Shown: in pieces, positions 10,746 through 25,633 of the stretch
How positions within the stretch are numbered: position 1 is the first letter of the stretch
How the letters are laid out: every line of letters starts with the position of its first letter
Assembly (NCBI RefSeq): GCF_000224065.1
Contig: NZ_AFWT01000005.1
Span: forward strand, 62,001 to 126,000
DNA length: 64,000 nucleotides
Direction: 5' to 3'
Source: Thiorhodococcus drewsii AZ1
GTDB taxonomy: Bacteria > Pseudomonadota > Gammaproteobacteria > Chromatiales > Chromatiaceae
Translations under genes and position numbers: made by a program
The notes under the pieces: model-generated
What the model was told of the DNA's origin: nothing
What the model saw: the letters and a program-made list of their open reading frames with translations, nothing else
The model's database searches: none

Positions 10746-11810
10746 TCAGGTGAATGCGGACGCAGGAATTGCCGCGCCAAGGGCCGGGGCGGGCAGCGGC
10801 ACAATGCAGTCGTCTGGAACCCGCAGACGCGTCTGGACCCCCAGCGCAGGGGGATGTTGATCCGACGGAAGATGGATACGCAGCGCCGTGCGGTCGGGCA
10901 GACGACAGAGCAGGACCCGATACCCCCCCATGTCGGTGACGCGAGCGATCTCCACGGACAGGCCGGTACCATCGGTCAGACTGGGTCCATGGGGTCGGAT
11001 GGCAATGTGCTCGGGGAACCCGGACGAGCACGATCCGTTCAATCGCAGCCGCCCCCAATCGCCTCGCGCCCAACCGCCCTCGCAGCCAGACACAGGGAGC
11101 CTGTTGTCCCAACCCAAAACCTGGGCCACCTCGACATCGAGAGGATGAGAGAAGACCTCGGAGGTCGGACCGAACTGGCGCAATTCGCCCGCGATCAACA
11201 CCCCGACCCGATCGGCGAGATGGCGAACGTCGTCGAGATCGTGCGTCACCAGGACGGTCGGTAACGCGCGCTCGGCGACCACCTCCTGGAACAGCAGGCG
11301 CAGCGACTGACGCAGCCCCAGATCGACGGCCGAGAAGGGCTCGTCGAGCAGCAGCACCTCCGGACGCGAGGCCAGCGCGCGCGCCAGGGCGACCCGCTGT
11401 TTCTGACCGCCCGAGAGCGCATGAGGCCGGCGCTCGGCGAAGGTTTGCAACTGCAATCGATCGAGCCAGACACGCACCTCCCCTTCCCCATCGCCGTGCG
11501 GCTGTCCATAGGCGACGTTGCGCGCCACGCTCAGATGCGGGAAGAGCGCATAGTCCTGGAACATGAGACCCGCGCGGCGGTGCCTCGGGGGAAGATCGAT
11601 CCGCTGTCCCTGATCGAACCAGACCCGTTCGCCGTGTCGAATGCAGCCGGACATCGGCCGCTCCAGTCCGGCGAGCAGGCGCAGCAGAGTCGTCTTGCCG
11701 CAGCCCGAAGGACCGACCAGGGCCGTGATCCCGGTCTCCGGAACACGGATCCGGGCGGCGAGCCGGAAGGCGGCGCGTCTGAACTCGAGATCGGCGTCCA
11801 GACAGGGCAT
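10746..11810 (-). CDS. modC: Molybdate ABC transporter, ATP-binding protein
   Basis: A 354-residue ABC ATPase: Walker A GPSGCGKTT, Q-loop MFQDYALFPHLS, signature LSGGQKQRVALARAL, Walker B VLLLDEPFSAVD and switch histidine in VTHDLDD. The C-terminal 120 residues form the regulatory extension where ModC proteins usually carry a Mop/TOBE domain; here that region (from about residue 240) lacks a clear SARN motif, so molybdate feedback at this site is uncertain. The start at 11810 overlaps the modB stop by one base (TGATG), indicating translational coupling. It would energise import through ModB at the inner membrane. Confidence 0.93.
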   Translation of the reverse strand: MPCLDADLEFRRAAFRLAARIRVPETGITALVGPSGCGKTTLLRLLAGLERPMSGCIRHGERVWFDQGQRIDLPPRHRRAGLMFQDYALFPHLSVARNVAYGQPHGDGEGEVRVWLDRLQLQTFAERRPHALSGGQKQRVALARALASRPEVLLLDEPFSAVDLGLRQSLRLLFQEVVAERALPTVLVTHDLDDVRHLADRVGVLIAGELRQFGPTSEVFSHPLDVEVAQVLGWDNRLPVSGCEGGWARGDWGRLRLNGSCSSGFPEHIAIRPHGPSLTDGTGLSVEIARVTDMGGYRVLLCRLPDRTALRIHLPSDQHPPALGVQTRLRVPDDCIVPLPAPALGAAIPASAFT

Positions 11811-12475
11811 CACAGCCTCCCCAACCGCCGCAGCAGCAGAAAGAGCCCCAGCGACAGCGCCCCGAGCAAAATCGACAGCCGGGTGGCGCACGCGAAATTG
11901 CCGTCGAGAACCTGGTTGTAGATGGCCAGCGACAGGGTCTCGGTCGAACCCAGAATGTTGCCTCCAAGCATCAGGGTCATTCCCACCTCGCCGAAAGAGC
12001 GCCCGACCCCCAGGGTCAGACCGGCGGCGATGTGCCGCCGGACGACCGGAATCACCACCAGAAAGAGCGTCTCCAGCCGGCCCTTGCCGAGCGTGTAGGA
12101 GACCTCGATCAGCTCGCGCGCGCTGCCCTCGATCGCCGACTGGATAGGCTTGACGACCAGCGGCAGCCCGGCGATGAAAGCAGCCATCACCAGTGCCGGA
12201 AAGGAGAACACCAGATCCCAGTCCAGGTACTGGTGCAATGGGTCGCCGATAACCCCGTGACGCCCGAACAGCATCAGCAGAAAGAAGCCGATGGCGATGG
12301 GCGGAAACACCAGCGGCAGCGAAACCAGGGCATCCAGCAGATTACGGAACGGAATCGGCTGACTGAGCGCATAGCCGAGCGCAATGCCCGCCACCAGGAA
12401 GAGCACCAGCACCACGCCGGCGACCTCCAGACTCAGCAGCAGCGCGGCGGGCGAGCAGTCGAGCCAGGGCGTCAT
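11810..12475 (-). CDS. modB: Molybdate ABC transporter, permease
   Basis: A 221-residue membrane protein with about five to six hydrophobic helices and the ABC coupling motif segment EVSYTLGKGRLETLFLVVIPVVRRHIAAG (EAA loop). The blocks SLPLVFPPIAIGFFLLMLFG and GRSFGEVGMTLMLGGNI are characteristic of ModB. Length is close to the 229 residues of the E. coli protein when the ATG at 12475 is used; upstream in-frame sequence is part of a repeat and is rejected as coding. It transfers molybdate or tungstate across the inner membrane, powered by ModC. Confidence 0.93.
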   Translation of the reverse strand: MTPWLDCSPAALLLSLEVAGVVLVLFLVAGIALGYALSQPIPFRNLLDALVSLPLVFPPIAIGFFLLMLFGRHGVIGDPLHQYLDWDLVFSFPALVMAAFIAGLPLVVKPIQSAIEGSARELIEVSYTLGKGRLETLFLVVIPVVRRHIAAGLTLGVGRSFGEVGMTLMLGGNILGSTETLSLAIYNQVLDGNFACATRLSILLGALSLGLFLLLRRLGRL

Positions 12476-12496
12476 GACGGGATGCTCGGGAAATCG

Positions 12497-12528
12497 AACC
12501 GCAAAGGCGCAAAGAGCACAAAGGGTTT
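12497..12528 (-). repeat. Interspersed repeat copy A (AACCGCAAAGGCGC... type)
   Basis: About 32 bases, AACCGCAAAGGCGCAAAG followed by AGCACAAAGGGTTT. It is the inverted partner of the copy starting at 12598 and resembles a third copy at 16748. When translated these elements give the familiar NRKGAK-like peptide seen in many bacterial genomes, so it is an extragenic dispersed repeat rather than coding sequence. Confidence 0.75.
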
Positions 12529-12597
12529 GACTGAATAACACGGCAGTCCACCAATCGGCCTGCCAGCCACCAACATGTCCTGGTCGAGAGTCATTCG

Positions 12598-12645: not shown

Positions 12646-13353
12646 TCAAAGCCCGTACTTGGTCAGGATGCCCTTAGCCTGGTCCGAGCCGAGGAAGGCC
12701 GCGAACGCCTTAGCCGATTCAGACACGGGCCGGTCCTTGGGGAAGGCCAGCACAATCCGGGGCGGATCGTAGAGATCGACCGGAACCGCCTCGAACCCGG
12801 CGATCCTGTCTTTGATCCCGATCGCATCCGTCATGTTGATGAAACCGGCGTCGATCGTCCCCGCGATCAAGTAGGCCGAGACCTGAGGCACGGTCGCCAG
12901 AATCATGAGCTTGTCCTTCACCTCCGGCATCAGTTCGCTGCGTTCCAGGAACTGGATGGCGGCCTTGCCGTAGACAGCCTTCTTGGGATCCGGCAACGCG
13001 ATGCGTTCGACGGCCGGGTCGGTCAGCTGACGATAATCGCTCAGCGCCTTGTTGCTGTAGGCCAGCACGAGACGCCCGGCGCCCAGTGGGACATAGCGCT
13101 CGAACAGCCCGGTTTTTTCCAGGAATCCCCGCTCGCCGACCACCAGATCGATCCGACCGCTATCGCGGGTCTGAGCCATCACCTGCTGCATGTTGCCGAA
13201 GGCTGCCTCGACCTTGGTCCCGGTCGAGCGGTCGAAGGCGGCGTAGATCTCGACCAGCGGCTTTTTGTATCCCGCCCCGGCGGCGATCAGCAGCGGATCC
13301 GCCGAAACCGACAGCGATAGGAACAAAAGGGCGATGAAGGTAGTGAGTCGCAT
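12646..13353 (-). CDS. modA: ModA-like periplasmic oxyanion-binding protein
   Basis: A 235-residue exported protein (signal peptide MRLTTFIALLFLSLSVSA) of the extracellular solute-binding type 11 fold. The order of blocks matches ModA: LLIAAGAGYKKPLVEIYAAF, TGTKVEAAFGNMQQVM, RIDLVVGERGFLE, and YLIAGTIDAGFINMTD. Compared with classical ModA the first anion loop lacks its usual serine (AAGAGYKKP rather than AASS/AASLK), so this is a divergent member whose ligand, molybdate, tungstate or another oxyanion, must be tested. It sits 15 bases after a TonB-dependent receptor and 170 bases before modB, on the same strand as both. Confidence 0.8.
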   Translation of the reverse strand: MRLTTFIALLFLSLSVSADPLLIAAGAGYKKPLVEIYAAFDRSTGTKVEAAFGNMQQVMAQTRDSGRIDLVVGERGFLEKTGLFERYVPLGAGRLVLAYSNKALSDYRQLTDPAVERIALPDPKKAVYGKAAIQFLERSELMPEVKDKLMILATVPQVSAYLIAGTIDAGFINMTDAIGIKDRIAGFEAVPVDLYDPPRIVLAFPKDRPVSESAKAFAAFLGSDQAKGILTKYGL

Positions 13354-13368
13354 GATGAATCCTCGTGG

Positions 13369-15609
13369 TTAGAAGTTGGCGGACAACGACAAAGCCAAGG
13401 TGCGTGGTGCACCCGGATAGTAGTCGATGCTCTCGGGTCGGGCGTCGTCCTGACCCACGTCGATGGTCGAGATGTAATCGGCGTCGAAGAGATTGACCAC
13501 CGACATCCCGATCTCCAGCGATTGCATGCCGGCGACCTTGCCGAGCCGATAGACCGCGTTGAGATCGACCGTGGCATAGTCGTCGACCGATTCCTGGTTG
13601 AGCGCATCGCCGTAGCGGCGTCCGACATAGCGGGCGATGGGGGTCAGATTCCAGTTCCCGTAGCGAAACTCGGCGCCCAGCTTGGCGAGCCATTCGGGTG
13701 CGTCCGGCACCTGGTTGCCCGAGGTCTCCAGCACCGCCGCGCTGCCGGCGCGAATGTCGTCGTCGAGACGGTTGCGGTTCCAGGACAGACTGCCGATCAG
13801 CGTCCAGTGACGGTCGAGGCCCCAGCTCGCCTCCAGCTCGGCGCCATAGGCCTTCGCGTCCACGCCGCTCTGCAGATAGGAGACGCCGACTGCGGGATCG
13901 TAGGCGGTGACCTGCTTGTCGCTGAGGTCGCTGTAGTAGAGCGTCGGGGTCAGGACCAGGCTGCCGTGACGCCATTCGAGACCCAGCTCGATGGTGTCGG
14001 ACGTCTCCAGGGCCAGATCGTCCCACAGCTGCTGCAGCGGAATGCCCGCCTTCTGGAATGCCTTGCGGTTCTTCATGTAGACGCTGTAGAGCGGACCCAT
14101 CCAGGGATTGCCGACGCTGCGTCCATAGGCGCCCTTGAGGTCCAGCGCCGGGGTCAGCTCGAAACGGGAGCTGAGGGTGGGCAGCCATTCGTCCAGGGTC
14201 ACCGCATCGGTGCTGAGTGCGGCCACGACCGCCGGGTTCATGGACAGCGCACTGTCGTGACTCATGTTCGGCAGACCCGAGCCGTCGTAGCTGGTGATGC
14301 CCGGGATGCGGAAACTCAGATAGCGCAGCCCGATGCCATAGCGCCAGCGTCCACGCTCGCCGGACAGCTGGAGATAGGGGCTCTCGTAGGCACGATCGCC
14401 CATGTCGGCGAGGATGCCCCACTTGGAGAAGACCAGCCCCCCTTGCTTGTCGATCGCATAGACCTTCTGGCTCATGGGTGGAGGCATGGAGGAAAGACGC
14501 TGGGTCCAGTAGCCCAGGGTCAGCGTCTGGTCGGCGAGCTCGGCGACCAGCTCGGCGGTGGCGCCGTACTGCTCCTGGTCGATGTCGATCACCATGACCT
14601 TGTCGGTCTTGCCGACCCGGCGCTCGCCCTCGTTCGACAGCCAGTAGGGACTGAATCGGATCTGGATGTCGTCGGTCAGCGCCCAGCTGAAGCGCGCGAG
14701 CAGGTTGGTCTCATCGAAATGCTGGCTGTTGTAGGCGTAATAGTCGGCATCGGTCGTCGCCACCCCGGTCAGATCGGCGTTGTAGTCCAGATCCGCGTAG
14801 CGATCCAGGTCCCGGCTCTGGGCGTAGGTCAGGGGACGGTATTCATCGCGATGGAAGCGGTTGTGGGCGGCATAGATCTCCAGGGATCCGCGCTCGCCGA
14901 AGGTCTGAGCGAAACCGGCGTTGAAGGTGTCGCGGGACTGGCCGCCCTCCCCGCGCCATTTGTCGCTCTCGGAGGTGGAGCCCGAGACGAAGAGGCTGGA
15001 GCCGCCGTTGAAGGTGCCCGTGTCGATGCGGCCGAAGAGCTTGTGGAAGCCGTCGCCGCCGACCGAGGTGCGCAGACGTGCGCCCGCCTCCTCGGTCGGC
15101 CCCTTGATCGCCAGATCCAGACTGCCCGCCAGGTTGCCCATGCCGAGCCCCACGTCCGCCGGCTGGGCGCCGCGCCAGAGGGTGACGGACTCCAGGTTCT
15201 CCATGTCGAACAGATTGCCCACGCCGCCGCGCCCGGCGCTGACCGAGGATGGGGTGCCGTTCACCGTGACGGCCAGGTTGCTGTAGGTCGAGGCGGCGAT
15301 ACCCCGCACGCGCATGGCGTTCTGGTCGACGCTCAGACCATAGGCGTCCACTCCGGTAAGGTTGACCGAGGGCATGAGATCGAGCGCTCGGTAGGGATTG
15401 GCCTGGGCCGGACCGCCGAAGACGGCCAGGCCATCGGCGTCGACGCGCGAGGCCGAGTAGTCCTGTCCCTCCAGCGGCGCCACCGAGGGGATCGGCGAGG
15501 CCGTGACCTCGATCGGGGTCAGCTCGGTGTCCGGAGCGGCGGACGCCGCCTGGGAGAGCGCCAGCAGCGACCACAGCAGCATGAGCGATGGGGTATCGTG
15601 CCGAATCAT
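13369..15609 (-). CDS. TonB-dependent outer-membrane receptor 1 of the molybdenum island
   Basis: A 746-residue outer-membrane protein with a signal peptide ending in AASA, a TonB-box-like PIEVTASP, a plug domain (VNLTGVDAYGLSVDQNAMRVRGIA, FDMENLESVTLWRGAQPAD) and a long beta-barrel ending in an aromatic residue (LALSLSANF). It is homologous along its length to receptor 2 (for example LTLGYWTQRL here against LKVGYWLNTM there, and YYPGAP close to both C-termini). It lies between the MolA-like binding protein (15 bases upstream) and the ModA-like protein (15 bases downstream), which ties it to oxyanion uptake rather than to iron. The ligand could be molybdate bound by a carrier or a polymeric form; that is inference. 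Confidence 0.9.
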   Translation of the reverse strand: MIRHDTPSLMLLWSLLALSQAASAAPDTELTPIEVTASPIPSVAPLEGQDYSASRVDADGLAVFGGPAQANPYRALDLMPSVNLTGVDAYGLSVDQNAMRVRGIAASTYSNLAVTVNGTPSSVSAGRGGVGNLFDMENLESVTLWRGAQPADVGLGMGNLAGSLDLAIKGPTEEAGARLRTSVGGDGFHKLFGRIDTGTFNGGSSLFVSGSTSESDKWRGEGGQSRDTFNAGFAQTFGERGSLEIYAAHNRFHRDEYRPLTYAQSRDLDRYADLDYNADLTGVATTDADYYAYNSQHFDETNLLARFSWALTDDIQIRFSPYWLSNEGERRVGKTDKVMVIDIDQEQYGATAELVAELADQTLTLGYWTQRLSSMPPPMSQKVYAIDKQGGLVFSKWGILADMGDRAYESPYLQLSGERGRWRYGIGLRYLSFRIPGITSYDGSGLPNMSHDSALSMNPAVVAALSTDAVTLDEWLPTLSSRFELTPALDLKGAYGRSVGNPWMGPLYSVYMKNRKAFQKAGIPLQQLWDDLALETSDTIELGLEWRHGSLVLTPTLYYSDLSDKQVTAYDPAVGVSYLQSGVDAKAYGAELEASWGLDRHWTLIGSLSWNRNRLDDDIRAGSAAVLETSGNQVPDAPEWLAKLGAEFRYGNWNLTPIARYVGRRYGDALNQESVDDYATVDLNAVYRLGKVAGMQSLEIGMSVVNLFDADYISTIDVGQDDARPESIDYYPGAPRTLALSLSANF

Positions 15610-15624
15610 GTCATGACGTCCCCG

Positions 15625-16674
15625 TCAGCCCTTGCCCAGGATCGCCTGGACGTCCACGACCTCGGGCTCCACACCGAGATAGAGGGCATAGAACGCCTTG
15701 ATCTCCTTCTCCGCATCCCAGTCGAAACGCTCTGGATACAGGACGTTGGCGAACCATTCCATCGCCACCGCGCGCATGAAGGACGGCGGACGCCCCATCC
15801 AGTTGAAGGGCTTGGAAGGCACCAGATAGACCTGGCCCTCGCGCACCGCGCGCAGACCGCTCCAGGCCGGATCCGACTCGATGTGCGCGAACGCCTTGGG
15901 ACGGTCGACCAGGATAACGTCCGGATCCAGCTTCTCGACCTGTTCCAGCGACACCGGGTCGCGGCCGCACATGGCCTTGGTCTCGCAGCGCATCACGTTG
16001 TAGCCGCCAGCAAGCTCGATGACCTCGGCATGGAAGGAGTCGTAGCACTCGGTGAGCAGCCCGTCGTTGCCCTCGGCGAAATAGACCCGCTTGCGCTCGA
16101 CCTCGGGGATGGGAGCGACGGCCTCGCCCACGCGCCGCATGCGGGCGCGGATATCCTCCGCCAGTAGCGCCGCCCGCTCCTCCTCGCCGATCGCCTTGCC
16201 GACCAGCTCGAACGCGGCCGGATAGTCGGCGAGATGTTCGAGATGGACGAAGAGCCCGGGCGTATTCAGGTTCTCGAAGGTCTGCTCGACCTGCTCGGCG
16301 TCGATGAAGGGGATGTCCCAGGCGATGCTGAGCTGGGGATCGGTCTTGGCCAGGAGCTCGGGATTGGGCGGCTGGCCCTCTCCGGTATAGCGCCCGACGA
16401 TCGGCAGATCCTTGACCAGTGGGGACACGTAGGGCGCGTCCTCCGGTTGGAAGGGAAAATTGAGCGTGACCAGCTTGCCGGGATCGATGGCATAGACCAG
16501 GGGCACCACGGGCGGGGCGGCGGCGAAGACGCGCTCGACCGCGTCGGGCACCTGGACCTTGCGGCCGGTCATGTCGGTCAGCTCGGCCGCCTGAACGGCG
16601 AACATGGGCAGGGCCAGGGCCGCCGCGATCAGGCTCGGCCGAAACGGAAAGGAGTTATCTTTAGTGTCAGACAT
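15625..16674 (-). CDS. Class III periplasmic binding protein (MolA/BtuF/FecB fold)
   Basis: A 349-residue exported protein (signal peptide SLIAAALALPMFAVQA). ELTDMTGRKVQVPDAVERV followed by PLVYAIDPGKLVTLN is the classic opening of the FecB/BtuF-like family, and LDPDVILVDRP plus GQVYLVP complete the two-lobe pattern. The class includes binding proteins for cobalamin, haem and siderophores and also MolA of Haemophilus influenzae, which binds molybdate and tungstate. Position between two TonB-dependent receptors in a mod operon makes a MolA-like role the best guess. There is no FecCD/BtuC-type permease in the window. I start at the ATG at 16674; an upstream GTG or ATG would add up to 14 residues. 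Confidence 0.85.
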   Translation of the reverse strand: MSDTKDNSFPFRPSLIAAALALPMFAVQAAELTDMTGRKVQVPDAVERVFAAAPPVVPLVYAIDPGKLVTLNFPFQPEDAPYVSPLVKDLPIVGRYTGEGQPPNPELLAKTDPQLSIAWDIPFIDAEQVEQTFENLNTPGLFVHLEHLADYPAAFELVGKAIGEEERAALLAEDIRARMRRVGEAVAPIPEVERKRVYFAEGNDGLLTECYDSFHAEVIELAGGYNVMRCETKAMCGRDPVSLEQVEKLDPDVILVDRPKAFAHIESDPAWSGLRAVREGQVYLVPSKPFNWMGRPPSFMRAVAMEWFANVLYPERFDWDAEKEIKAFYALYLGVEPEVVDVQAILGKG

Positions 16675-16747
16675 AGTGAACGATTCCACGAAACGATAAA
16701 ACGATCGCATTGGCACTGGACGCCTACCCCCGATGCAGGATCGGAAT

Positions 16748-16791: not shown

Positions 16792-19059
16792 TCAGAAATC
16801 TACGGCCACCTTGGCGAGCACCGTGAAGGGGGCGCCTGGGTAGTAGTTGAAGCCCCCGGTGTCCTGGACGTAGCTGGTGTTGACGTAGCCGATGTAGTCG
16901 GTGTCGAAGAGGTTGATGAAGCTCAGGGTGAAGCGGTAGTCCCCCGGGCCGAGCCGTTCCTCGAAGCTCAGGTCCAGATCGACGGTGACATAGTCGTCGA
17001 CCTCCTCGGTACGGGCCGAGTCGGCGTAGTAGTCGCCGGAGTAATGCACCACGGGCGAGACGCCGAAACGCCCGAGCCGCCAGTGCCCGCCGAGACTGGC
17101 ATGCCACTGGGGGGCACCCGGGATCTGTTTGCCTTCGACCTCGAGCTTGGCCCCGCCGGTGGTGACCAGATCCTTGTCGAAGACGGAGCGGTCGTAGGAC
17201 AGGGTTCCGAACAGGTCGAGGTTTCGGGCGGCCTGCCAGGTACCGAGGATCTGCGCGCCATAGGCGTGGCTCTCGGCGATGTTCTGGGTGTAGGCGATCC
17301 CGACCGCCGGATCCCAGAAGGCGACTCCCTGATTCTCGTAGGAGGCGTAATAGAGGGTCGGTTCGAGCGAGCCCCAGGGGAAACGCAGACTCATTCCCAG
17401 GTCGATGGCGTCCGAGATCTCTGGCTCAATGGTGTCCCAGATATCGGCGGCACTGACGCCAGCGGCGGCGAACTTGGCATAGTTCATCTGGAATACCGGC
17501 CAGGCGCCGTAGACGGGGGCGCCATAGTTGCGCCCGATGCTCAGATTGATATCGGTCGCGGGGTCGAGCGCATAGGTCAGCCCCAGATAGGGCAGCAGCT
17601 CGCGGAAGGTCGTGCCGCCCGTGCTGCGATTGCGGTTGATTCGAGTGGCGCGCTTCAGCGCCCGATCGTAGGAGAGATCGCCGATCCCGGTGGTATCGTA
17701 GACGTCGAATCCGGACATGTGCTCGACCAGATAGCGTGCGCCGGCCTGGACCCGCAGATCGCCAAAGTCATGGGTTCCCATGGCATACAGGCTCTGGAAG
17801 CTGTGACGCTCGGTCGGCTCGGCGAGCAGGGCCCATTTGGCGAAGGAAAGTCCGCCCGAGGCGGTCGGGGCGTGGAGCTTCCAGGCCGTGGGCGGACCGG
17901 GCGGCTCCATGGTGTTGAGCCAGTAGCCGACCTTGAGATCCGTGTCCTGGATACGGGTCTCCAGCTCGGCGCTGAGGCCGTACCAATCGTGGTCGATCAG
18001 CCACTCGCGGACCTTGCCGTTGGACATCCCGTTGTAGAAGACGCCCTCCTCGTAGGCATAGAAGGGCTTGATGGTGAGCAGGGTCTCGCCCCGCAACGGC
18101 AGGGTGAATTCGCCGAATAGGGTCCAGTCGGTGAAGTCCTGGGTGTTGTACTTGTAATAATTGACCGCCTCGGCTGGATTGGCGCTCGGCTGACTCTTGT
18201 AGCCATAGTTGCGATAGCGCGAGAGATCCTGGGACTGGGCGTAGCTCAGCGACCGATAGCTGTCGAGGCTCATGTCGTTGTAGGCGAAATAGAGCTTGGC
18301 CTCGGCGCCGTTGTCGAAGCGCTGGACCAAACCGCCCTCGAAATTCTCGCGCCCCTCGGGCGAGTCGCCGGGACCGCGCCATTGATCGCCCGAGGTATAG
18401 GAGGCGGAGCCGAAGAGGCTCATGCCGTTCTCGAGCAGTCCAGAGTCCAGACGCACGAAGCTGCGTGTGAAGTCGTAGGCCCCCAGGCTCTGGGAGAGAT
18501 GGACGCCGGCCTCGGGCTCCGGCCAGCGCAGCCGGTTGTCGAGCACGCCCATGGTGGTGAAGAAGGCGAGACGGTCGGGCGGGATCGGCCCCTGGCTCAG
18601 GGAGACCGACGCGATGTTCTCCATGTCGAACAGCCAGAGATAGCCGGGGCCCGGGTTGATGCCGGTCAGCGGCAGGCCATCGACGCTGCCCATGGCGCCG
18701 TGGCTGGCAATCTTGCCGCGTACCCGAAGACCCTTGTTGCTGAACAGGTTCGAGAATCCATAGGGGTCCATATCGCCGACGCTCACCGAGGGCAGCTCGG
18801 CCAGGGCACGATAGGGATTCACCTGACTCGGGGCGGCGAGACGCTCCAACGTCTCCCCAGAGATCCGATAGCTCGTGGAGGTCGTCTCCTCTTCCCGGCC
18901 GATCGCGGCCTGGCCGGACAGATCCTGCTGGCCATAGACGGTAACGGGCGCCAGCTGGATCTCCGCAGCCGGGGACGGTGCCGACATGGCCAGGGCGCAT
19001 CCCGTCGCGACCAGCGTACGGGGCACATCGAGGTGAAGGGTCGAAAGGGGTGATTTCAT
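16792..19059 (-). CDS. TonB-dependent outer-membrane receptor 2 of the molybdenum island
   Basis: A 755-residue paralogue of receptor 1: signal peptide, TonB-box-like APVTVYG, plug with VNPYRALAELPSVSVGDMDP and LRVRGKIASHGAMGSVDGLP, and a barrel ending KVAVDF. The plug contains LFDMENIASVSLSQGPIPPD, parallel to receptor 1. I start at the ATG at 19059, preceded by GAGGGA at suitable distance; it leaves a normal signal peptide and excludes 16 upstream residues. It begins 80 bases after tonB, so tonB, exbBD and the receptors are probably one transcript controlled by the ModE-like operator ahead of exbB. Confidence 0.9.
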   Translation of the reverse strand: MKSPLSTLHLDVPRTLVATGCALAMSAPSPAAEIQLAPVTVYGQQDLSGQAAIGREEETTSTSYRISGETLERLAAPSQVNPYRALAELPSVSVGDMDPYGFSNLFSNKGLRVRGKIASHGAMGSVDGLPLTGINPGPGYLWLFDMENIASVSLSQGPIPPDRLAFFTTMGVLDNRLRWPEPEAGVHLSQSLGAYDFTRSFVRLDSGLLENGMSLFGSASYTSGDQWRGPGDSPEGRENFEGGLVQRFDNGAEAKLYFAYNDMSLDSYRSLSYAQSQDLSRYRNYGYKSQPSANPAEAVNYYKYNTQDFTDWTLFGEFTLPLRGETLLTIKPFYAYEEGVFYNGMSNGKVREWLIDHDWYGLSAELETRIQDTDLKVGYWLNTMEPPGPPTAWKLHAPTASGGLSFAKWALLAEPTERHSFQSLYAMGTHDFGDLRVQAGARYLVEHMSGFDVYDTTGIGDLSYDRALKRATRINRNRSTGGTTFRELLPYLGLTYALDPATDINLSIGRNYGAPVYGAWPVFQMNYAKFAAAGVSAADIWDTIEPEISDAIDLGMSLRFPWGSLEPTLYYASYENQGVAFWDPAVGIAYTQNIAESHAYGAQILGTWQAARNLDLFGTLSYDRSVFDKDLVTTGGAKLEVEGKQIPGAPQWHASLGGHWRLGRFGVSPVVHYSGDYYADSARTEEVDDYVTVDLDLSFEERLGPGDYRFTLSFINLFDTDYIGYVNTSYVQDTGGFNYYPGAPFTVLAKVAVDF

Positions 19060-19138
19060 ACAGCGAATTCCCTCTGAAACGATGTCTTTCGTGGATCGAT
19101 GGGGCATGGATCAGTCATTCGGCGGCGCCCTGCCCGGC

Positions 19139-19981
19139 CTATTGATTCAGCTTGAAGCGGATGGGGATGCGGACCCAGGCCGAGATCGGCCGCCCGTTCT
19201 GCTGCGCGGGCTTGAAGCGCCAGCGGCGCACCGCACGGAGCGCAGCCCGGTCGAGGCTGGAGACGCCCGAGGACGTAGCGATCCGCACCTCGCCCGGCCG
19301 CCCCTTGGCGTTGACCAGCACCCGCAGATGGACCGTGCCCTCCTGGCGCTGGCGGCGCGCCGAGCCCGGATAGCCGGGCGCGGGGTTGTTCAGATAGGCC
19401 GCCGGCGAACTGGCGCCTCCGGTAGCCCCACCCTTTCCCGAGCGAGATCCGCCGGCATGCGCGGCCTTGCCGGACACCTGACTGCTCGCACCCGATGTGG
19501 CCTGCGTCCGGGAAGACGCCGAACGCGCCTGGGGCTTGGGAACCGGTTTCGGCTTGGCCTGCGGTTTCGGCTTGGGCTTGGGTTTTGGCTTCTTCTTGGG
19601 CTTGGGCGTCGGCTTCGGTTTGGGCGGCGCGACCGCAACCTGCTCCGGGGCGGGTTCCGGGACCGAAAGCGGCGGCGGCACTGGATCGGGCGCCTCCTCA
19701 ACGGGAGGCTCGGGCGGCTCCGGTTCGGGTTCGGGAACCGACGGCGGTTCGGGCGCCACGGACGGGGAAGGCGCCTCTTCCTCCGCGCCGGCCGCAGCGG
19801 AATCGGCCAACGCGGAGGCGGACACCAAACTCACTTCGATCGCATCCATCCCGGGCGGCATGACGGGGTGCGACGGCCAGTTCGACAGACCAACCACGAC
19901 CGCCGCCTCGGTCCCGAGCGCGATCAGCGTGGCCAACCACAGGGGCAGCGTCGGAAGCGGGGGCGCCTCGCTCCGGATCAC
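19139..19981 (-). CDS. tonB: TonB energy-transducing protein
   Basis: A 280-residue protein with an N-terminal membrane anchor (about residues 12-32), a long periplasmic linker rich in Pro-Glu followed by Pro-Lys repeats (PKPKPTPKPKKKPKPKPKPK), and a C-terminal TonB domain (YPGSARRQRQEGTVHLRVLV, SSLDRAALRAVRRWRFKPA). It spans the periplasm and transmits the ExbBD-harvested proton-motive force to outer-membrane receptors. Translation starts at a GTG that overlaps the exbD stop by four bases. Its place inside the molybdenum island suggests a dedicated TonB rather than the general iron one. Confidence 0.95.
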   Translation of the reverse strand: MIRSEAPPLPTLPLWLATLIALGTEAAVVVGLSNWPSHPVMPPGMDAIEVSLVSASALADSAAAGAEEEAPSPSVAPEPPSVPEPEPEPPEPPVEEAPDPVPPPLSVPEPAPEQVAVAPPKPKPTPKPKKKPKPKPKPKPQAKPKPVPKPQARSASSRTQATSGASSQVSGKAAHAGGSRSGKGGATGGASSPAAYLNNPAPGYPGSARRQRQEGTVHLRVLVNAKGRPGEVRIATSSGVSSLDRAALRAVRRWRFKPAQQNGRPISAWVRIPIRFKLNQ

Positions 19982-20370
19982 GCCCCGGGCTCCCGCGTGG
20001 CGATGCCGATCCGGGTGACACCGGCGAGCCGACAGACGTCCATGACGGCGACCAGATCGCCGATAGCGGCGGCCTCGGCACCGGCGATGACGACGCGGGT
20101 CTCGGTGCCGCGCTCGCGCAACACGGCCGTCAGCTCGTCGAGCGTCATGTCTTGCCGGTCAACGCTGATCATGCCCGCGGCGTCCAGACTGACCACGACC
20201 TGCGGCGACTCAAGCCGCTCGGCGCTGGCGCTCGACGGCAAACGGCTGCCGATCCCGGTGGCGGGGATCATGTTGAGCGTGACCATGATGAAAAACACCA
20301 AGAGGAAGAACATGATGTCGATCATGGGCACGATCTCGATCCGTGCCTTGCGCCGCTCCAGATAGCGCAT
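19978..20370 (-). CDS. exbD: ExbD biopolymer transport protein
   Basis: A 130-residue protein with a short basic cytoplasmic start (MRYLERRKARIEIVPMIDIMFFLLVFFI), one transmembrane helix carrying the essential aspartate (MIDIMFF), and a periplasmic domain. This is the ExbD/TolR signature. The open frame continues upstream, but the ATG used here overlaps the exbB stop by one base (TGATG), which fixes the start. ExbD couples proton flow to TonB together with ExbB. Confidence 0.95.
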   Translation of the reverse strand: MRYLERRKARIEIVPMIDIMFFLLVFFIMVTLNMIPATGIGSRLPSSASAERLESPQVVVSLDAAGMISVDRQDMTLDELTAVLRERGTETRVVIAGAEAAAIGDLVAVMDVCRLAGVTRIGIATREPGA

Positions 20371-21014
20371 CAGAGGGCTCCGGACGCAGACGCTCGCGGA
20401 CCGCTTTCGGAGAAGCGGTTGACCAGCATCACCTTGAGCGTTTCGAGCTGATGCACGGCGAGCCGAACGCGCTCGTTGAGCCCGTTGAAGAAGACCAGAC
20501 CGACGACGGCGATCAGCAGCCCGGCGGCGGTCGCCACCAGCGCCTCGGCGACGCCGCCGGTCACGGCATTGGGCGCGGCACCGGGCTCCGAGAGCACCTG
20601 AAACGCATGGAACATGCCGACAATGGTCCCGATCAACCCGAGCAAAGGCGCCAGAGTGACCGTGGTATCCAGCACCCAGAGACGTCGATCGAGCAGCGGC
20701 ACCTGGCGCAGGATCACCTCCTCCAGCCGATTGCCCAGCAGTTCCTGGCTGCTCGGCGGCAAGGCCAGAGTCGTCTCCAACAGCGCTCCATGCAGAGGAC
20801 GCGCCTGGGTCTCTCGGATCCATTCGAGTCCGGAACGATCCTGCGCCGACAGATCGCTCAAGGCCCGAGTCAGGGTCTCGCCGTGACGAGTCAGGTTGCG
20901 CAGCGCCCAGGTGCGCTCGGCGATCACCGCAAGCGCAGCGGTCAAGAGACCCACCATCAGATAGAGCACACCGCCCGAATGGTCGGCCAGTTGCATCAGA
21001 TATGAGAGATTCAT
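20370..21014 (-). CDS. exbB: ExbB biopolymer transport protein
   Basis: A 214-residue MotA/TolQ/ExbB-family membrane protein with helices at about residues 14-32, 118-142 and 160-180. The motif APLLGLIGTIVGMFHAF and VAEALVATAAGLLIAV are diagnostic. It forms the proton channel with ExbD. The ATG has a GGAG ribosome site, and a ModE-type palindrome ends 21 bases upstream of the start, so this gene is probably the first of a molybdate-repressed operon (exbB-exbD-tonB-receptor 2-MolA-like-receptor 1-modA-modB-modC-unknown). Confidence 0.95.
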   Translation of the reverse strand: MNLSYLMQLADHSGGVLYLMVGLLTAALAVIAERTWALRNLTRHGETLTRALSDLSAQDRSGLEWIRETQARPLHGALLETTLALPPSSQELLGNRLEEVILRQVPLLDRRLWVLDTTVTLAPLLGLIGTIVGMFHAFQVLSEPGAAPNAVTGGVAEALVATAAGLLIAVVGLVFFNGLNERVRLAVHQLETLKVMLVNRFSESGPRASASGAL

Positions 21015-21034
21015 CGGGGATCTCCGTTCGTGAA

Positions 21035-21058
21035 CGTTATATCTAATTTCACATAACG
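21035..21058. promoter_or_regulatory. ModE-type operator upstream of exbB
   Basis: The arms CGTTATAT and ACATAACG are separated by eight bases, 24 bases in total. From memory this is the same architecture and nearly the same arms as the E. coli modA operator for ModE. It lies between the molybdopterin-fold gene and the exbB start, where bound ModE would block exbB transcription. Confidence 0.85.
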
Positions 21059-21087
21059 CATGACGCGCTCAGGCACGGGGCTGCGGC

Positions 21088-21678
21088 TCATTTGACGAGC
21101 TGCCGGACCTCGATCGCGTTCAGCCAGCGCACATGACGCGGGCCGGTGCGCTTGTCCGTCGTCGAGATGAGCGCGATTTGCCCCTCTTCGACGCCAAGCG
21201 GCGCGCCATCCTTGCGGAAGTAGACGATAACGTGGTCGCCGACCTCGGAATCGAAGATCTCACCCCAGGAGAAGACCGCGACATAGCCGTCCGTAGCCTT
21301 GGCGATCACCGCCATCTTGCGGAAATCGCGCGGCGTGAGGGCCTTGAGCTTGGCCTGTTCGAGGATGTCGCGCAGCAGGACGCCCCGCAGGTTCTCCTTC
21401 TTGCCGATGTTGACGCCTGTGTCGCAGATCATCTCAACCTCGCCGATCTGCTGCGGCGGGAACCGCTCCAGATCGGTCACCGACAGGGTCAGTGGATTCT
21501 CGACCGCTCCCGTGACGGCAACCGAATCCGAGATATAGGACATCTGCGGATCCATGGCTGGAGAGGCGACCGCCAGACTTGCCGCCAGCAGCCCAAGGAT
21601 CAGAAAGGAGAGACCGGCCCGCGCTCTTGCGAACCGATTGGATGCGTGAAGACAGGTCGTTGGCATGGAAATAGACAT
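21088..21678 (-). CDS. Exported protein with molybdopterin-oxidoreductase (PF00174-like) fold
   Basis: A 196-residue protein with a signal sequence (around FLILGLLAASLAVASPA). The mature part, TGAVENPLTLSVTDLERFP, MICDTGVNIGKKENLRGVLLRDILEQA, ATDGYVAVFSWGEIFDSEVGDHVIVYF and TGPRHVRWLNAIEV, follows the sulfite-oxidase/MsrP Moco-domain pattern in a shortened form; Cys in EMICDTG sits at the place of the Mo-ligand cysteine. The ATG overlaps the stop of receptor 3 by one base (TGATG), so the two are coupled. It may be a small periplasmic molybdoenzyme or a protein that reuses the fold to bind a molybdenum species on its way in. Confidence 0.75.
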   Translation of the reverse strand: MSISMPTTCLHASNRFARARAGLSFLILGLLAASLAVASPAMDPQMSYISDSVAVTGAVENPLTLSVTDLERFPPQQIGEVEMICDTGVNIGKKENLRGVLLRDILEQAKLKALTPRDFRKMAVIAKATDGYVAVFSWGEIFDSEVGDHVIVYFRKDGAPLGVEEGQIALISTTDKRTGPRHVRWLNAIEVRQLVK

Positions 21679-23660
21679 CAGAATTCGTACCTTGCGTTGA
21701 TGAACCACATACGTCCGGGATTCGGGTAACCGTCGGCCAGCTCGTAATCGGCATCGGCCAGATTGTTCAGACGAGCCTCTAGGATCAGGTCCTCGACCGG
21801 ACGGTAGGAAAGCTTGAAGTTGGCGGTGGTGTAGGCGTCCAATTCGACGGTGTCGGACTCCCAGCGTGGTCCTTCGTGCTCGACGAACAGCAGCGCCTCC
21901 CAGCGGTCCGCCGGACGGAAGGCGACGTGCGCGGTGACCTTTCGGTCCGGAACGCCGGTGAGCTTGGTGTCGGGATCGCTACGGTTCTCACGATCGAGCA
22001 GGGTCAGAGTCCCCCCAACCTCCCAACGGGTGCCGATCGGCGCCGACGCACTCAGCTCCCAGCCGGTGACGCGTACCTCGCCGACGTTCTGCATCTGGTA
22101 TTTGTCGTCCTCGACGTTGTCGACCGTTTGGATGAGATCGGTGATGTCGCTCAGAAACAGGGCCGTTTCGAGGTGCAGTTGTCCCCAGGGCGTGCCCTGG
22201 TAGCCGACCTCATAGTTGATCGACTGTTCGGCCTCTAGGTCCGGATTGGGAACGGCCCTGCCAAGACGCAACGAATAGCGGTCCTTCAGGGTCGGGAAAC
22301 GGGTCTTTCCAGCAATCGTGGTATAGAGACGCCCGACCCCATCGAGATCCCAGAACAGCCCAACCTGACCATTGGTGGCCGATTGATCGTCAGGGTCAGG
22401 TACCGGATCGCTCGATTTGTAGACGGTGTCGGCCCGCAGCTCGCTCCAGGCGACGCCGAGCGAGAGGGTCAGATCCTTGGCCAGGCTGATGTTGTCCTCG
22501 AGCCCGACGGTGGTGAGGGTGTCCTCGAAGTGCTCGGTGCGCTTCAGGGTATCGTCGGCCTTGTGCTCGTCCTTCTTGAGCTGGAGGCTCAGACGCAGAT
22601 CCTGACGGTTGAAGCGGGTCGAGCGCAGCTCGATCGAGCCGCCATTGGTGCGATCGTTGTAGACGCTCTTGCCGGCCGATCCAACGCTGCCCTTACCCGA
22701 GGTCTTGAGCCTGGTGTAGGTGTCGTCGGTATAGGACTCGACGGCATTGTCGTACGCGTCGTGATAGAGCCTCAGCTTCACCGATTCGGTGTCGCCAAGC
22801 GCCGTGTTCGAGATGAAGTAGAGACTCTCCTTGTCCCAATAGGGCCACTGCCAGTAGCGAGCATAGCTCGGATCGGTCGAGGGCGGCTGTCCCTTATCGC
22901 CGCTCTGACGGTAGTAGCTCAGGGCGTACTCGTCGGTGTCGTTCGGAGTCAGACCGATCTTGAGGGACAGCTTGTCGTCACGCCGGTAGGAATTCTCGCG
23001 CGCGCCGCCGTTCTCGGTCGCCGTCGGCTTGAAGTCGGAAGACAGCCGAAAGTCGTCGCTCTCGATCCAGGACGCGCCGGCCTGGACATACCAAAGCCCC
23101 TGATTGCTGCCGATGTTGGCGGAGGCAGTACGCGCGTTCCCCTCACCGAATCCAACGCTCGCATCGCCCTCGATCTCTCGGGTCGGCTTGCGCGAGATGA
23201 GGTTGATCGCCCCTCCCAGCGTATTGGGACCATAGGTGACGGAGCTGAAGCCCTTGGCGACCTGAATCGCAGAGAGGTCTGCCGTCGTGAAGCGGTTGAA
23301 ATCCACGTAACCGTCATAGGGGACATAGACCGGGATGCCGTCGATGAAGAGCGGCACCTGGCGCGAATCGAAGCCTCGGACATAGACCGTCTTCTCGTTG
23401 CGCGAGTTGGTCGAAACGGTCACGCCCGGCAGCAGATCGAGCGCATCGCCCACGTTGTCGCGGTTGAACTCTCGCATCTCGTCGAGCGTAATCAGAGAGG
23501 ACGCCTGATCCCCTCCCACCTCGCCGAGCTGCGATGGAGTCGCCGTCACCTGGACCGTTCCCAGATCGTACAAGGGCAAGGCGCTCTCGGCCTGGGTGCC
23601 GATAGCGACGCCCAGTAGCGACAGCCCGATGGTCGAATCGATACCTATGTTTCGTTTCAA
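21678..23660 (-). CDS. TonB-dependent outer-membrane receptor 3 (BtuB-like size)
   Basis: A 660-residue receptor with a signal peptide (MKRNIGIDSTIGLSLLGVAIGTQA), TonB box GTVQVTATP, a plug with ALDLLPGVTVSTNSRNEKTVYVRGFDSRQVPLFIDGIPVYVP, and a 22-strand-type barrel ending FINARYEF. It is not closely similar to receptors 1 and 2 and looks more like the BtuB/CirA group. It has its own ModE-type operator about 330 bases upstream, and is followed directly by the molybdopterin-fold gene. Vitamin B12 or a siderophore are the usual ligands of this group; the operator and neighbours argue for a molybdenum complex instead. Confidence 0.9.
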   Translation of the reverse strand: MKRNIGIDSTIGLSLLGVAIGTQAESALPLYDLGTVQVTATPSQLGEVGGDQASSLITLDEMREFNRDNVGDALDLLPGVTVSTNSRNEKTVYVRGFDSRQVPLFIDGIPVYVPYDGYVDFNRFTTADLSAIQVAKGFSSVTYGPNTLGGAINLISRKPTREIEGDASVGFGEGNARTASANIGSNQGLWYVQAGASWIESDDFRLSSDFKPTATENGGARENSYRRDDKLSLKIGLTPNDTDEYALSYYRQSGDKGQPPSTDPSYARYWQWPYWDKESLYFISNTALGDTESVKLRLYHDAYDNAVESYTDDTYTRLKTSGKGSVGSAGKSVYNDRTNGGSIELRSTRFNRQDLRLSLQLKKDEHKADDTLKRTEHFEDTLTTVGLEDNISLAKDLTLSLGVAWSELRADTVYKSSDPVPDPDDQSATNGQVGLFWDLDGVGRLYTTIAGKTRFPTLKDRYSLRLGRAVPNPDLEAEQSINYEVGYQGTPWGQLHLETALFLSDITDLIQTVDNVEDDKYQMQNVGEVRVTGWELSASAPIGTRWEVGGTLTLLDRENRSDPDTKLTGVPDRKVTAHVAFRPADRWEALLFVEHEGPRWESDTVELDAYTTANFKLSYRPVEDLILEARLNNLADADYELADGYPNPGRMWFINARYEF

Positions 23661-24172
23661 GTTCTGCTCTCACTGTCGAATCAATTGATGAAGGGCACGT
23701 CGAATCGCTCGGCCCAAGCCAATCGAAGACATCCGCCGTTTCGGGTCGCCACGCGCCTTCCAACCAAGCCGAAGACGTCTGTAAAGCGACCGCTATATCC
23801 AAAAAAATACAACGATAAACACAGCGAAAAAATGGGAATTCCACTGCCGCGAAAATCTTTAAGCAGAATCAATGCCAATTTCAAAAAAGCACCAACCCAA
23901 TATCGTAAGTTATTGTTAATAAATAACGTAAATCGAAAAACCGAATCGTATCGAGTCAGGCGCGGGTAAAAATGAGGCAAAACGTACGATTCGTTATGTA
24001 GTTTTATATACAACGACACAAGACCCACATCGCTGGGGCCAGACAGCGCCTGCGGGATGTCGGACGGTCTTAGCTCAGATCTCGGGGGCAGGCACACCGA
24101 TACGCCTCACCATGGAGAGGAGACGCACAAGACGAGCTGCGAGAATTCGGTACTCCGGGGTGACGACACGCC
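23661..24172. other. AT-rich gap between modE and receptor 3
   Basis: About 510 bases with markedly lower GC than the surroundings. It holds a ModE-type operator (23992-24015) and an additional AT-rich inverted repeat near 23909-23927 (GTTATT and AATAAC on the two sides of a seven-base core). A long leader of roughly 300 bases would precede receptor 3. An open frame on the minus strand (23681-24097) has no family resemblance or ribosome site and I do not call it. Confidence 0.6.
23992..24015. promoter_or_regulatory. ModE-type operator upstream of receptor 3
   Basis: CGTTATGT and ATACAACG flank an eight-base centre, again 24 bases in total. The arms show imperfect symmetry compared with the other two sites, which suggests a weaker site. 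Molybdate-bound ModE here would control receptor 3 and the coupled molybdopterin-fold gene. Confidence 0.65.
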
Positions 24173-24967
24173 TTAATGCAGGGTGACGAGAATGATGCTG
24201 GTCGCCTTGAACACGGCGCAGACTGGACTCCCGACCACGAGGCCGAGATGTTCGGCGCTATCCCTGGTGACGACAGCGGTGACGGTGCGTCCACCCGCGA
24301 TCACCAGGGTGACCTCGACGTTGACAGGGCCTTCATAGATACGCTTAACATGACCCCATAGATGATTGCGTGCAGAGGTACGTAGATCCGGATCGACGGA
24401 AAGGATGACGGAAGACGCCTTGATGAACGCCTGCACCTCCATGCCGATCTCAAGCTGGAGGTGACGCACGCTCTCGCGGGTGATGAGCGCGGTCAATTGC
24501 AGCCCCTCGTCCACGCAAAGCCGCACCTGGGCGCTAACCTCGCTGAAATTGAGGCCGCAAACCCGAGCGGCGAACTGGTTGCGCGCGCTGGTCTTCATGC
24601 CCATCCGTCGCAACAGCCGACGGCACTCTTGCAGGTCCGCCTCCTCCGAATCGCCCATCTCGCGCGAGAGACGCTCAAGGGCCCCTTGATATTCCTGCTC
24701 GACCGCCCGGAACATGGCGATGAGTCTGGCGCCATAGGGTGTCAGATGGGTGCCGCCGCCGTGACGCCCACCCACCGAACTCTCGACCAATGGGGACTCG
24801 GCCAGGTTGTTCATGGCATCGATGGCATCCCAGGCCGACTTGTATGACATGGGCACGGCCTTGGCTGCGCGGGAGATGGAACCGTGGCGACCGATGGCCT
24901 CCAACAGACGAATGCGCGTATCGCCCAGAAAATTGCCAAGCTGCGTCTCGACGGACAGCTTGCTCAT
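24173..24967 (-). CDS. modE: Molybdate-responsive transcriptional regulator ModE
   Basis: A 264-residue protein, the normal ModE length. An N-terminal winged-helix domain (RIRLLEAIGRHGSISRAAKAVPMSYKSAWDAIDAMNN) and the GRHGGGTHLTPYG wing are followed by two Mop domains, each with a SARN motif (KTSARNQFAARV and RTSARNHLWGHV). ModE binds molybdate or tungstate through the Mop domains and then represses uptake genes. I start at the ATG at 24967, which gives the standard N-terminus. A ModE-type operator lies 40 bases upstream, so autoregulation is likely. Confidence 0.96.
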   Translation of the reverse strand: MSKLSVETQLGNFLGDTRIRLLEAIGRHGSISRAAKAVPMSYKSAWDAIDAMNNLAESPLVESSVGGRHGGGTHLTPYGARLIAMFRAVEQEYQGALERLSREMGDSEEADLQECRRLLRRMGMKTSARNQFAARVCGLNFSEVSAQVRLCVDEGLQLTALITRESVRHLQLEIGMEVQAFIKASSVILSVDPDLRTSARNHLWGHVKRIYEGPVNVEVTLVIAGGRTVTAVVTRDSAEHLGLVVGSPVCAVFKATSIILVTLH

Positions 24968-25006
24968 CAGACGAACCGATTCTGCGCCGTGTGGGAACAT
25001 ATAATC

Positions 25007-25030
25007 CGTTATACTGTGATAGATATAACG
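25007..25030. promoter_or_regulatory. ModE-type operator between modE and mop
   Basis: CGTTATAC and ATATAACG flank an eight-base centre, 24 bases in total, in the divergent region between modE and the di-Mop gene. It could regulate both directions. Confidence 0.8.
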
Positions 25031-25204
25031 ATGAGTATACAACCTCAAACAAGACGACAAAAGCAGGCCGCAAACCAAAGGGGACTCGTCGTCACCGCTA
25101 TGGTTGTAAGTACAAACCGCAACGCCCTAAATTAGGATTCGCCAGTTGCCAGACAGGGCCTGGCGCGCGAGAAGCAATTTCTACCAGCAAGGTAAGGTAT
25201 CAAG

Positions 25205-25633
25205 ATGAAAATTAGTGCACGCAACATCCTTCGCGGAACAGTCGAAGCGGTCAAGAGCGGTGCGGTCAACAGCGAAGTGGACCTCACCTTGCCTGGCGGT
25301 GAGAAGCTGGTGGCCATGGTCACCAACGAAAGCGCTCAATCGCTGGGGCTGGCTGGGGGAAAAGAGGTCGTTGCGCTCGTCAAGGCATCCTCCGTCCTCG
25401 TCATGACCGACGATTCCGGCATCCGCCTGAGCGCCCGTAACTGCCTGGCGGGCACGGTCAAGAATGTAACCGCCGGCCCGGTGAGCGCCGAAATCACGAT
25501 CGCGCTGGCCGGCGGCGACGAGGTCCACGCGTCCATCACCCACAATGCGGAAACAGAACTGGGTCTCAAGGAAGGCACTGCCGCCATGGCTGTCTTCAAG
25601 GCATCCGCCGTCATTCTCGGCGTCCCTGCCTAA
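25205..25633 (+). CDS. modG: Di-Mop molybdate-binding protein (ModG-like molbindin)
   Basis: A 142-residue protein made of two tandem Mop domains, each with the molybdate-binding motif: KISARNILRGTV and RLSARNCLAGTV. Length and arrangement match ModG of Azotobacter vinelandii, which stores or buffers cytoplasmic molybdate. There is no signal peptide. A modest ribosome site (AAGGTAT) precedes the ATG. It is transcribed away from modE across a shared ModE-type operator. It may hand molybdate to cofactor synthesis or keep ModE from saturating. Confidence 0.92.
   Translation: MKISARNILRGTVEAVKSGAVNSEVDLTLPGGEKLVAMVTNESAQSLGLAGGKEVVALVKASSVLVMTDDSGIRLSARNCLAGTVKNVTAGPVSAEITIALAGGDEVHASITHNAETELGLKEGTAAMAVFKASAVILGVPA

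Follow-up and report, generated by a model that had tools for sequence, protein, structure and literature searches.

TonB-ExbBD is usually regarded as part of iron homeostasis. In Escherichia coli, the ModE operator precedes modABC. Like the genome studied here, Rhodobacter capsulatus and Azotobacter vinelandii have two ModE-type regulators, and their ModE/MopA Mo-box regulons include sites at modABC (PMC6925177, PMC9542535). ModE or Mo-box sites have also been reported at the anfA or vnfA promoters of alternative-nitrogenase activators in Rhodobacter and Azotobacter (PMC6925177, PMC9542535), and our genome has one at a NifA-type activator. The targets named in the accessible parts of these papers are mopA-modABC, morAB, modEABC, vnfA1 and anfA, with no TonB-ExbBD among them (PMC6925177, PMC9542535). 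One published mod cluster, like ours, brings together a TonB receptor, an ABC transporter, modG, modE/G and modABC. Unlike our cluster, it has one receptor, and the accessible part of its description names no tonB/exbBD and mentions no operator. No description of ModE control of TonB-ExbBD was found in the accessible parts of the literature searched, which included PMC545781, PMC4465626 and PMC11734730 and in which the term ModE also matches "mode"; an earlier mention in the 2003 ModE-site survey or the 2008 TonB-substrate review is possible.

Here, we analyzed a 64,000-nucleotide stretch of DNA from Thiorhodococcus drewsii AZ1 (the window), in which a putative ModE-type operator at 21035–21058, assigned to the minus strand, precedes exbBD-tonB instead of modABC. 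Written in plus-strand letters it is CGTTATAT-N8-ACATAACG, and this exact sequence was confirmed in place. The first-pass annotation had called the arms nearly identical to those of the E. coli modA operator, which understates the likeness, because CGTTATAT and ACATAACG are fully identical (16/16, no mismatches) to the arms of the operator taken from E. coli K-12 (NC_000913.3; L002:2547–2570), and both sites have an 8-base centre. The distance to the start codon is also nearly the same, with 20 nt between the operator and the exbB ATG at 21014 on the minus strand compared with 19 nt before the modA ATG in E. coli. Relative to its gene, the exbB operator is flipped compared with that of modA. 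Its arms match the symmetrical form CGnTATAT-N8-ATATAnCG at 15 of 16 positions, so that the symmetry is imperfect. As a ModE-class site the operator is ordinary; what is unusual is its target.

We then compared the operator with chance expectation. One hundred dinucleotide-shuffled versions of the window contained no exact match to the pattern, and allowing up to three mismatches gave 8 strand-wise matches in the window itself against 0.07 expected. The window holds four ModE-like sites, at 21035, 23791, 23992 and 25007, one more than the three mentioned in the first-pass annotation. When scored with a matrix built from other loci, the site at exbB ranked first with 32.8 bits and the other three reached 27.3 to 30.8 bits, whereas the next-best position in the window reached 8.1 bits and the best scores in 40 window shuffles averaged 6.2 bits, with a maximum of 21.5.

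Across the whole genome (5,524,189 bases), the exact pattern matched once, and with up to three mismatches there were 23 strand-wise matches at 15 places, compared with 5 for a reversed-pattern control. All five places with at most two mismatches lie at molybdenum-related genes: the exbB site, 23992 (between TonB receptor 1, TBDR1, and modE), 25007 (between modE and mop), C141:21780 (between a second modE and modABC) and C126:126792. The last of these (C126:126792–126815; L051:9993–10016) is located 127 nt before a gene for a NifA-type activator, which scored 487.5 bits against the NifA model, below the cut-off of 528.85. AnfG/VnfG is encoded in the same genome, on C116, and we infer that this activator is AnfA or VnfA. 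A chance origin of the exbB operator was rejected on the basis of the shuffles and the genome-wide scan. Ten further places carry three mismatches, seven of them at L007–L013, and neighbourhoods were examined for the remaining three: 23791 and C141:20866 are at molybdenum genes, and C136:167807 is not, with no recognised molybdenum gene among the ORFs of at least 120 aa near the site. This C136 site (167807–167830; L053:9808–9831) has perfect inverted arms of a different, 10-base type, CATTATGTAG and CTACATAATG, around 4 bases, and is possibly a site for another regulator.

The operator sits within one cluster comprising modE and mop, three TonB receptors, exbB-exbD-tonB, a MolA-class binding protein and modABC. 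On the minus strand the order is modE, TBDR1, suoX, operator, exbB, exbD, tonB, receptor 2, binding protein, receptor 3, modA, modB and modC; mop and modE are divergent. The gene modE (24173–24967, its start being our own reading) encodes a molybdate-responsive regulator with Mop domains (TIGR00637, 103.5 bits, above the 98.5 cut-off), 3.1 kb from the operator. Together with a paralogue on C141, it supplies the genome with cognate ModE proteins having both HTH and molybdate-binding domains. The window ModE is 36% identical overall to E. coli ModE and matches PDB 1o7l at E 6.1e-36, and the N-terminal DNA-binding region of E. coli ModE is conserved in both the window ModE and the C141 paralogue. 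On the plus strand, mop (25205–25633) encodes two molybdopterin-binding (Mop) domains (TIGR00638, 158.7 bits), and the fourth ModE-like site (25007–25030; 2 mismatches, 27.3 bits) lies between the two divergent genes. The second (23791–23814; 3 mismatches, 28.9 bits) and third (23992–24015; 1 mismatch on the minus strand, 30.8 bits) precede TBDR1 and are 201 bp apart, a spacing similar to that seen in relatives. TBDR1 occupies 21678–23660 (PF00593, E 1.7e-37; PF07715, E 2.6e-21) and is followed by a gene at 21088–21708 that we call suoX, encoding a small oxidoreductase molybdopterin-binding-domain protein (PF00174, E 1.1e-8).

Downstream of the operator, all on the minus strand, are exbB (20370–21014; MotA/TolQ/ExbB proton channel, PF01618, E 9.6e-27), exbD (19978–20388; PF02472, E 2.1e-28) and tonB (19139–19981; PF03544 TonB_C, E 1.6e-26). 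The ExbB and ExbD subtype models all scored below their NCBIfam cut-offs, the TolQ/TolR models scoring best; the ExbB, ExbD and TonB C-terminal domains adjoin TonB-dependent receptors, as in an energy-coupling system. There follow receptor 2 (16792–19107; PF00593, E 2e-25), the periplasmic binding protein (15625–16716; PF01497, related to the MolA/BtuF class), receptor 3 (13369–15609; PF00593, E 1.8e-32) and genes of the modA type (12646–13353; molybdate-binding protein, TIGR01256, 92 bits, above the 62.5 cut-off), modB type (11810–12541; permease, TIGR02141, 162.4 bits, below 182.6) and modC type (10746–11891; ATPase, TIGR02142, 210.5 bits, below 285.05). The genome contains nine MotA/TolQ/ExbB-family genes, and the segments of 4 to 5 kb surrounding the other eight showed no ModE-like site above 11/16. 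Since only this one of the nine carries such a site in the stretches examined, the exbBD-tonB of the cluster looks like a dedicated copy. The first-pass annotation was right that exbBD-tonB is an unusual target for ModE, but the anomaly is smaller than it had seemed, because these genes sit within a molybdenum uptake cluster and are apparently dedicated to it.

To assess conservation, we collected ExbB orthologues at E ≤ 1e-35 from 16 of 210 genomes of the order (17 loci, our own included). A site of at least 13/16 lies within 350 nt upstream of exbB at seven of these loci: our own, Imhoffiella purpurea (G020, same genus), G104, Allochromatium warmingii (G105), Thiocystis violacea (G180), G008 and Thiospirillum jenense (G194). 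The short distance to exbB recurs in two of these relatives, I. purpurea (20 nt) and G104 (21 nt). Compared with the window, I. purpurea is identical at 14/16 positions in the arms, 5/8 in the centre, 11/27 in the 5' flank and 9/20 in the 3' flank, and G104 at 14/16, 2/8, 14/27 and 16/20, respectively. Because conservation of the G104 3' flank is similar to that of the arms, a clean footprint comes from I. purpurea only. In T. violacea (16 and 14 of 16) and T. jenense (13 and 12 of 16), two sites about 200 bp apart stand directly before exbB. G006 has two sites of 12/16 before exbB and one of 13/16 at the junction of the binding-protein and receptor genes, and in G009 a transposase-like ORF (L038:8206–9360, identified by eye) separates a ModE-like site from exbB. 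At a further six loci (G106 C4, G120, G005, G151, G119 and G070; receptor 1 of G120 matched only in part), exbB has no site of its own, and sites are found instead before the TBDR1-suoX genes directly upstream. Fifteen of the 17 loci adjoin receptor or binding-protein genes of the cluster, and each of these contains a ModE-like site at some position, although in several the segment analyzed, or the contig itself, stops short of any mod gene. The remaining two (G106 C7 and G010) have no ModE-like site anywhere in their stretches (L037 and L043), and their surroundings yielded no receptor, binding-protein, modA or modB gene; L037 has one weak modC-like ATPase match.

Next, we looked beyond the order. 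At E ≤ 1e-45, the binding protein was found in only 3 of 369 genomes, our own included, so it was dropped as a class-wide marker and a scan of named genomes was used instead. Scanning with the binding-protein alignment yielded the best 80 of 156 relatives' loci, of which 40 had at least one site of at least 13/16 and the remaining 40 had none. Sites of at least 13/16 numbered 84, against 1 in one dinucleotide shuffle per locus; the corresponding counts among these best 80 were 59 against 0 at 14/16 or better and 136 against 23 at 12/16 or better. When eight repeats of the ExbB-orthologue genomes were removed from the best 80, 32 of the resulting 72 loci had a site of at least 13/16 (63 sites). 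An exbB match was present in 19 of these 72 loci, 7 of the 19 having a site and 2 having it upstream of exbB. These two (L083 and L088) are deltaproteobacterial MAGs, in which a pair of sites spaced by 26 bp is followed by a DUF364/DUF4213 gene and then by exbB, exbD, tonB, FmdE and a receptor. In L088, the first part of the called DUF364/DUF4213 ORF contains the ModE-like sites. The receptor call rests on a Plug domain in L083 and was made by eye in L088. Because sites precede exbBD-tonB in these two MAGs, the arrangement is not confined to the window's family, and outside it few loci show it.

The identity of the arms, the distance to the start codon, the nearby modE, the genome-wide matches and the two relatives all support the original proposal of a ModE-type operator at exbB. 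Direct repression is nevertheless one of several ways to read it. The site may bind ModE without governing a separate exbB promoter, with transcription reading through from TBDR1-suoX, the paired sites there doing the regulating and the exbB site acting as a roadblock or persisting as a relic. Indeed, suoX lies directly before the gap to exbB, on the same strand and only 73 nt away, and we found neither a terminator nor a consensus sigma-70 promoter in 20900–21300, so that a separate exbB transcript is something we infer; no sigma-70 promoter was found in 23600–25300 either. The six loci with sites before TBDR1 but none at exbB, and the conserved 3' flank in G104, point the same way. We consider read-through rather unlikely, however, as the arms are kept 20–21 nt from exbB in two relatives while the I. 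purpurea flanks have diverged, E. coli modA has a similar distance, and T. violacea and T. jenense place their site pairs directly before exbB. That the palindrome serves another regulator and resembles a ModE site by coincidence appears very improbable: its assignment to ModE comes from sequence, but the five best places in the genome are at modE, mop, modABC, the exbB cluster or the NifA-type activator, and its score lies far above the shuffle maximum.

A further alternative concerns the substrate and may overlap with the other readings, namely that iron or siderophores are what the TonB system handles, ModE control being incidental, for example if siderophores also carry molybdate. Siderophore/heme receptor models match each of the three receptors, below cut-off in every case, and the binding protein belongs to the iron-complex class. 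In A. vinelandii, moreover, three TonB siderophore-receptor genes are reported, in the accessible part of the paper, to depend on the alternative-nitrogenase activator VnfA1 (PMC9542535). On the other hand, modE, mop and modABC share the cluster with exbBD-tonB. A profile of the binding-protein family matched HI_1472 (3psa) at E 6.1e-21, a distant relative of the same broad periplasmic binding class; the best solved relative, 4pag (E 8.3e-100), is named only "Periplasmic binding protein". We take HI_1472 to be MolA, a molybdate/tungstate binding protein. A simple Fur-box scan of exbB and the other eight MotA/TolQ/ExbB genes gave best scores of 12 to 13 of 19, nothing above chance, and it is too weak to exclude Fur because 40 shuffles of one 5-kb locus reached 11 to 14. 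Overall, we regard the iron or siderophore reading as unlikely, and the cluster content and operators point to molybdenum or tungsten as the probable substrate.

Our best reading of the sequence is that holo-ModE would repress a TonB system dedicated to taking up molybdenum or tungsten. Because the site adjoins the start codon and E. coli offers a precedent, repression by molybdate-loaded ModE is the simplest model, and we think it likely that the site is a functional operator at which this form represses a promoter directly before exbB. Holo-ModE at 21035–21058 would then keep exbB-exbD-tonB off, and the same-strand genes after tonB (receptors, binding protein and modABC) would probably be repressed as well. 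When molybdenum (or tungsten) is scarce, ModE would release the operator, allowing the outer-membrane receptors and the dedicated TonB-ExbB-ExbD engine to be made. This engine would draw into the periplasm either an oxyanion or a metal complex, which the MolA-like and ModA proteins would pass to the ABC importer; the ligand of the receptors may be the bare oxyanion or a chelate. In such bacteria, a dedicated engine for molybdenum uptake would thus probably be under the control of molybdenum and not of iron. We lean, by a modest degree, toward the broader proposal that a ModE-controlled, dedicated TonB-ExbB-ExbD engine imports molybdate, tungstate or a metal chelate across the outer membrane, and that purple sulfur bacteria share it with at least two deltaproteobacterial MAGs, where its partners differ (DUF364/DUF4213, FmdE), often with lineage-typical operator pairs (about 200, 65 or 26 bp). 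If true, this would imply energy-driven uptake of molybdenum at the outer membrane. Molybdate is scarce in sulfidic water, where such uptake could matter for nitrogen fixers.

Several additional features were observed in these loci. The small Oxidored_molyb-domain protein (21088–21708 in the window) adjoins receptor 1 in 9 of the 17 ExbB-orthologue loci. Pairs of ModE-like sites 183–204 bp apart precede TonB receptor 1 or exbB in 10 of the 17 (window 23791–24015, L035, L036, L040, L044, L045, L046, L047, L049 and L050), with a weaker site between the two in L045; this spacing suggests looping or paired promoters. The DUF364/DUF4213 "heavy-metal chelation" and FmdE proteins encoded behind ModE-like sites at L083:1478–7921 and L088:3944–9251 are candidates for new molybdenum or tungsten handling genes. 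Pairs spaced by exactly 26 bp were found at six loci (L070, L078, L083, L088, L102 and L115) from deltaproteobacterial or unassigned proteobacterial MAGs, L088 and L102 belonging to one MAG, and pairs spaced by 62–66 bp were found in L068, L120, L121, L123 (two pairs) and L134.
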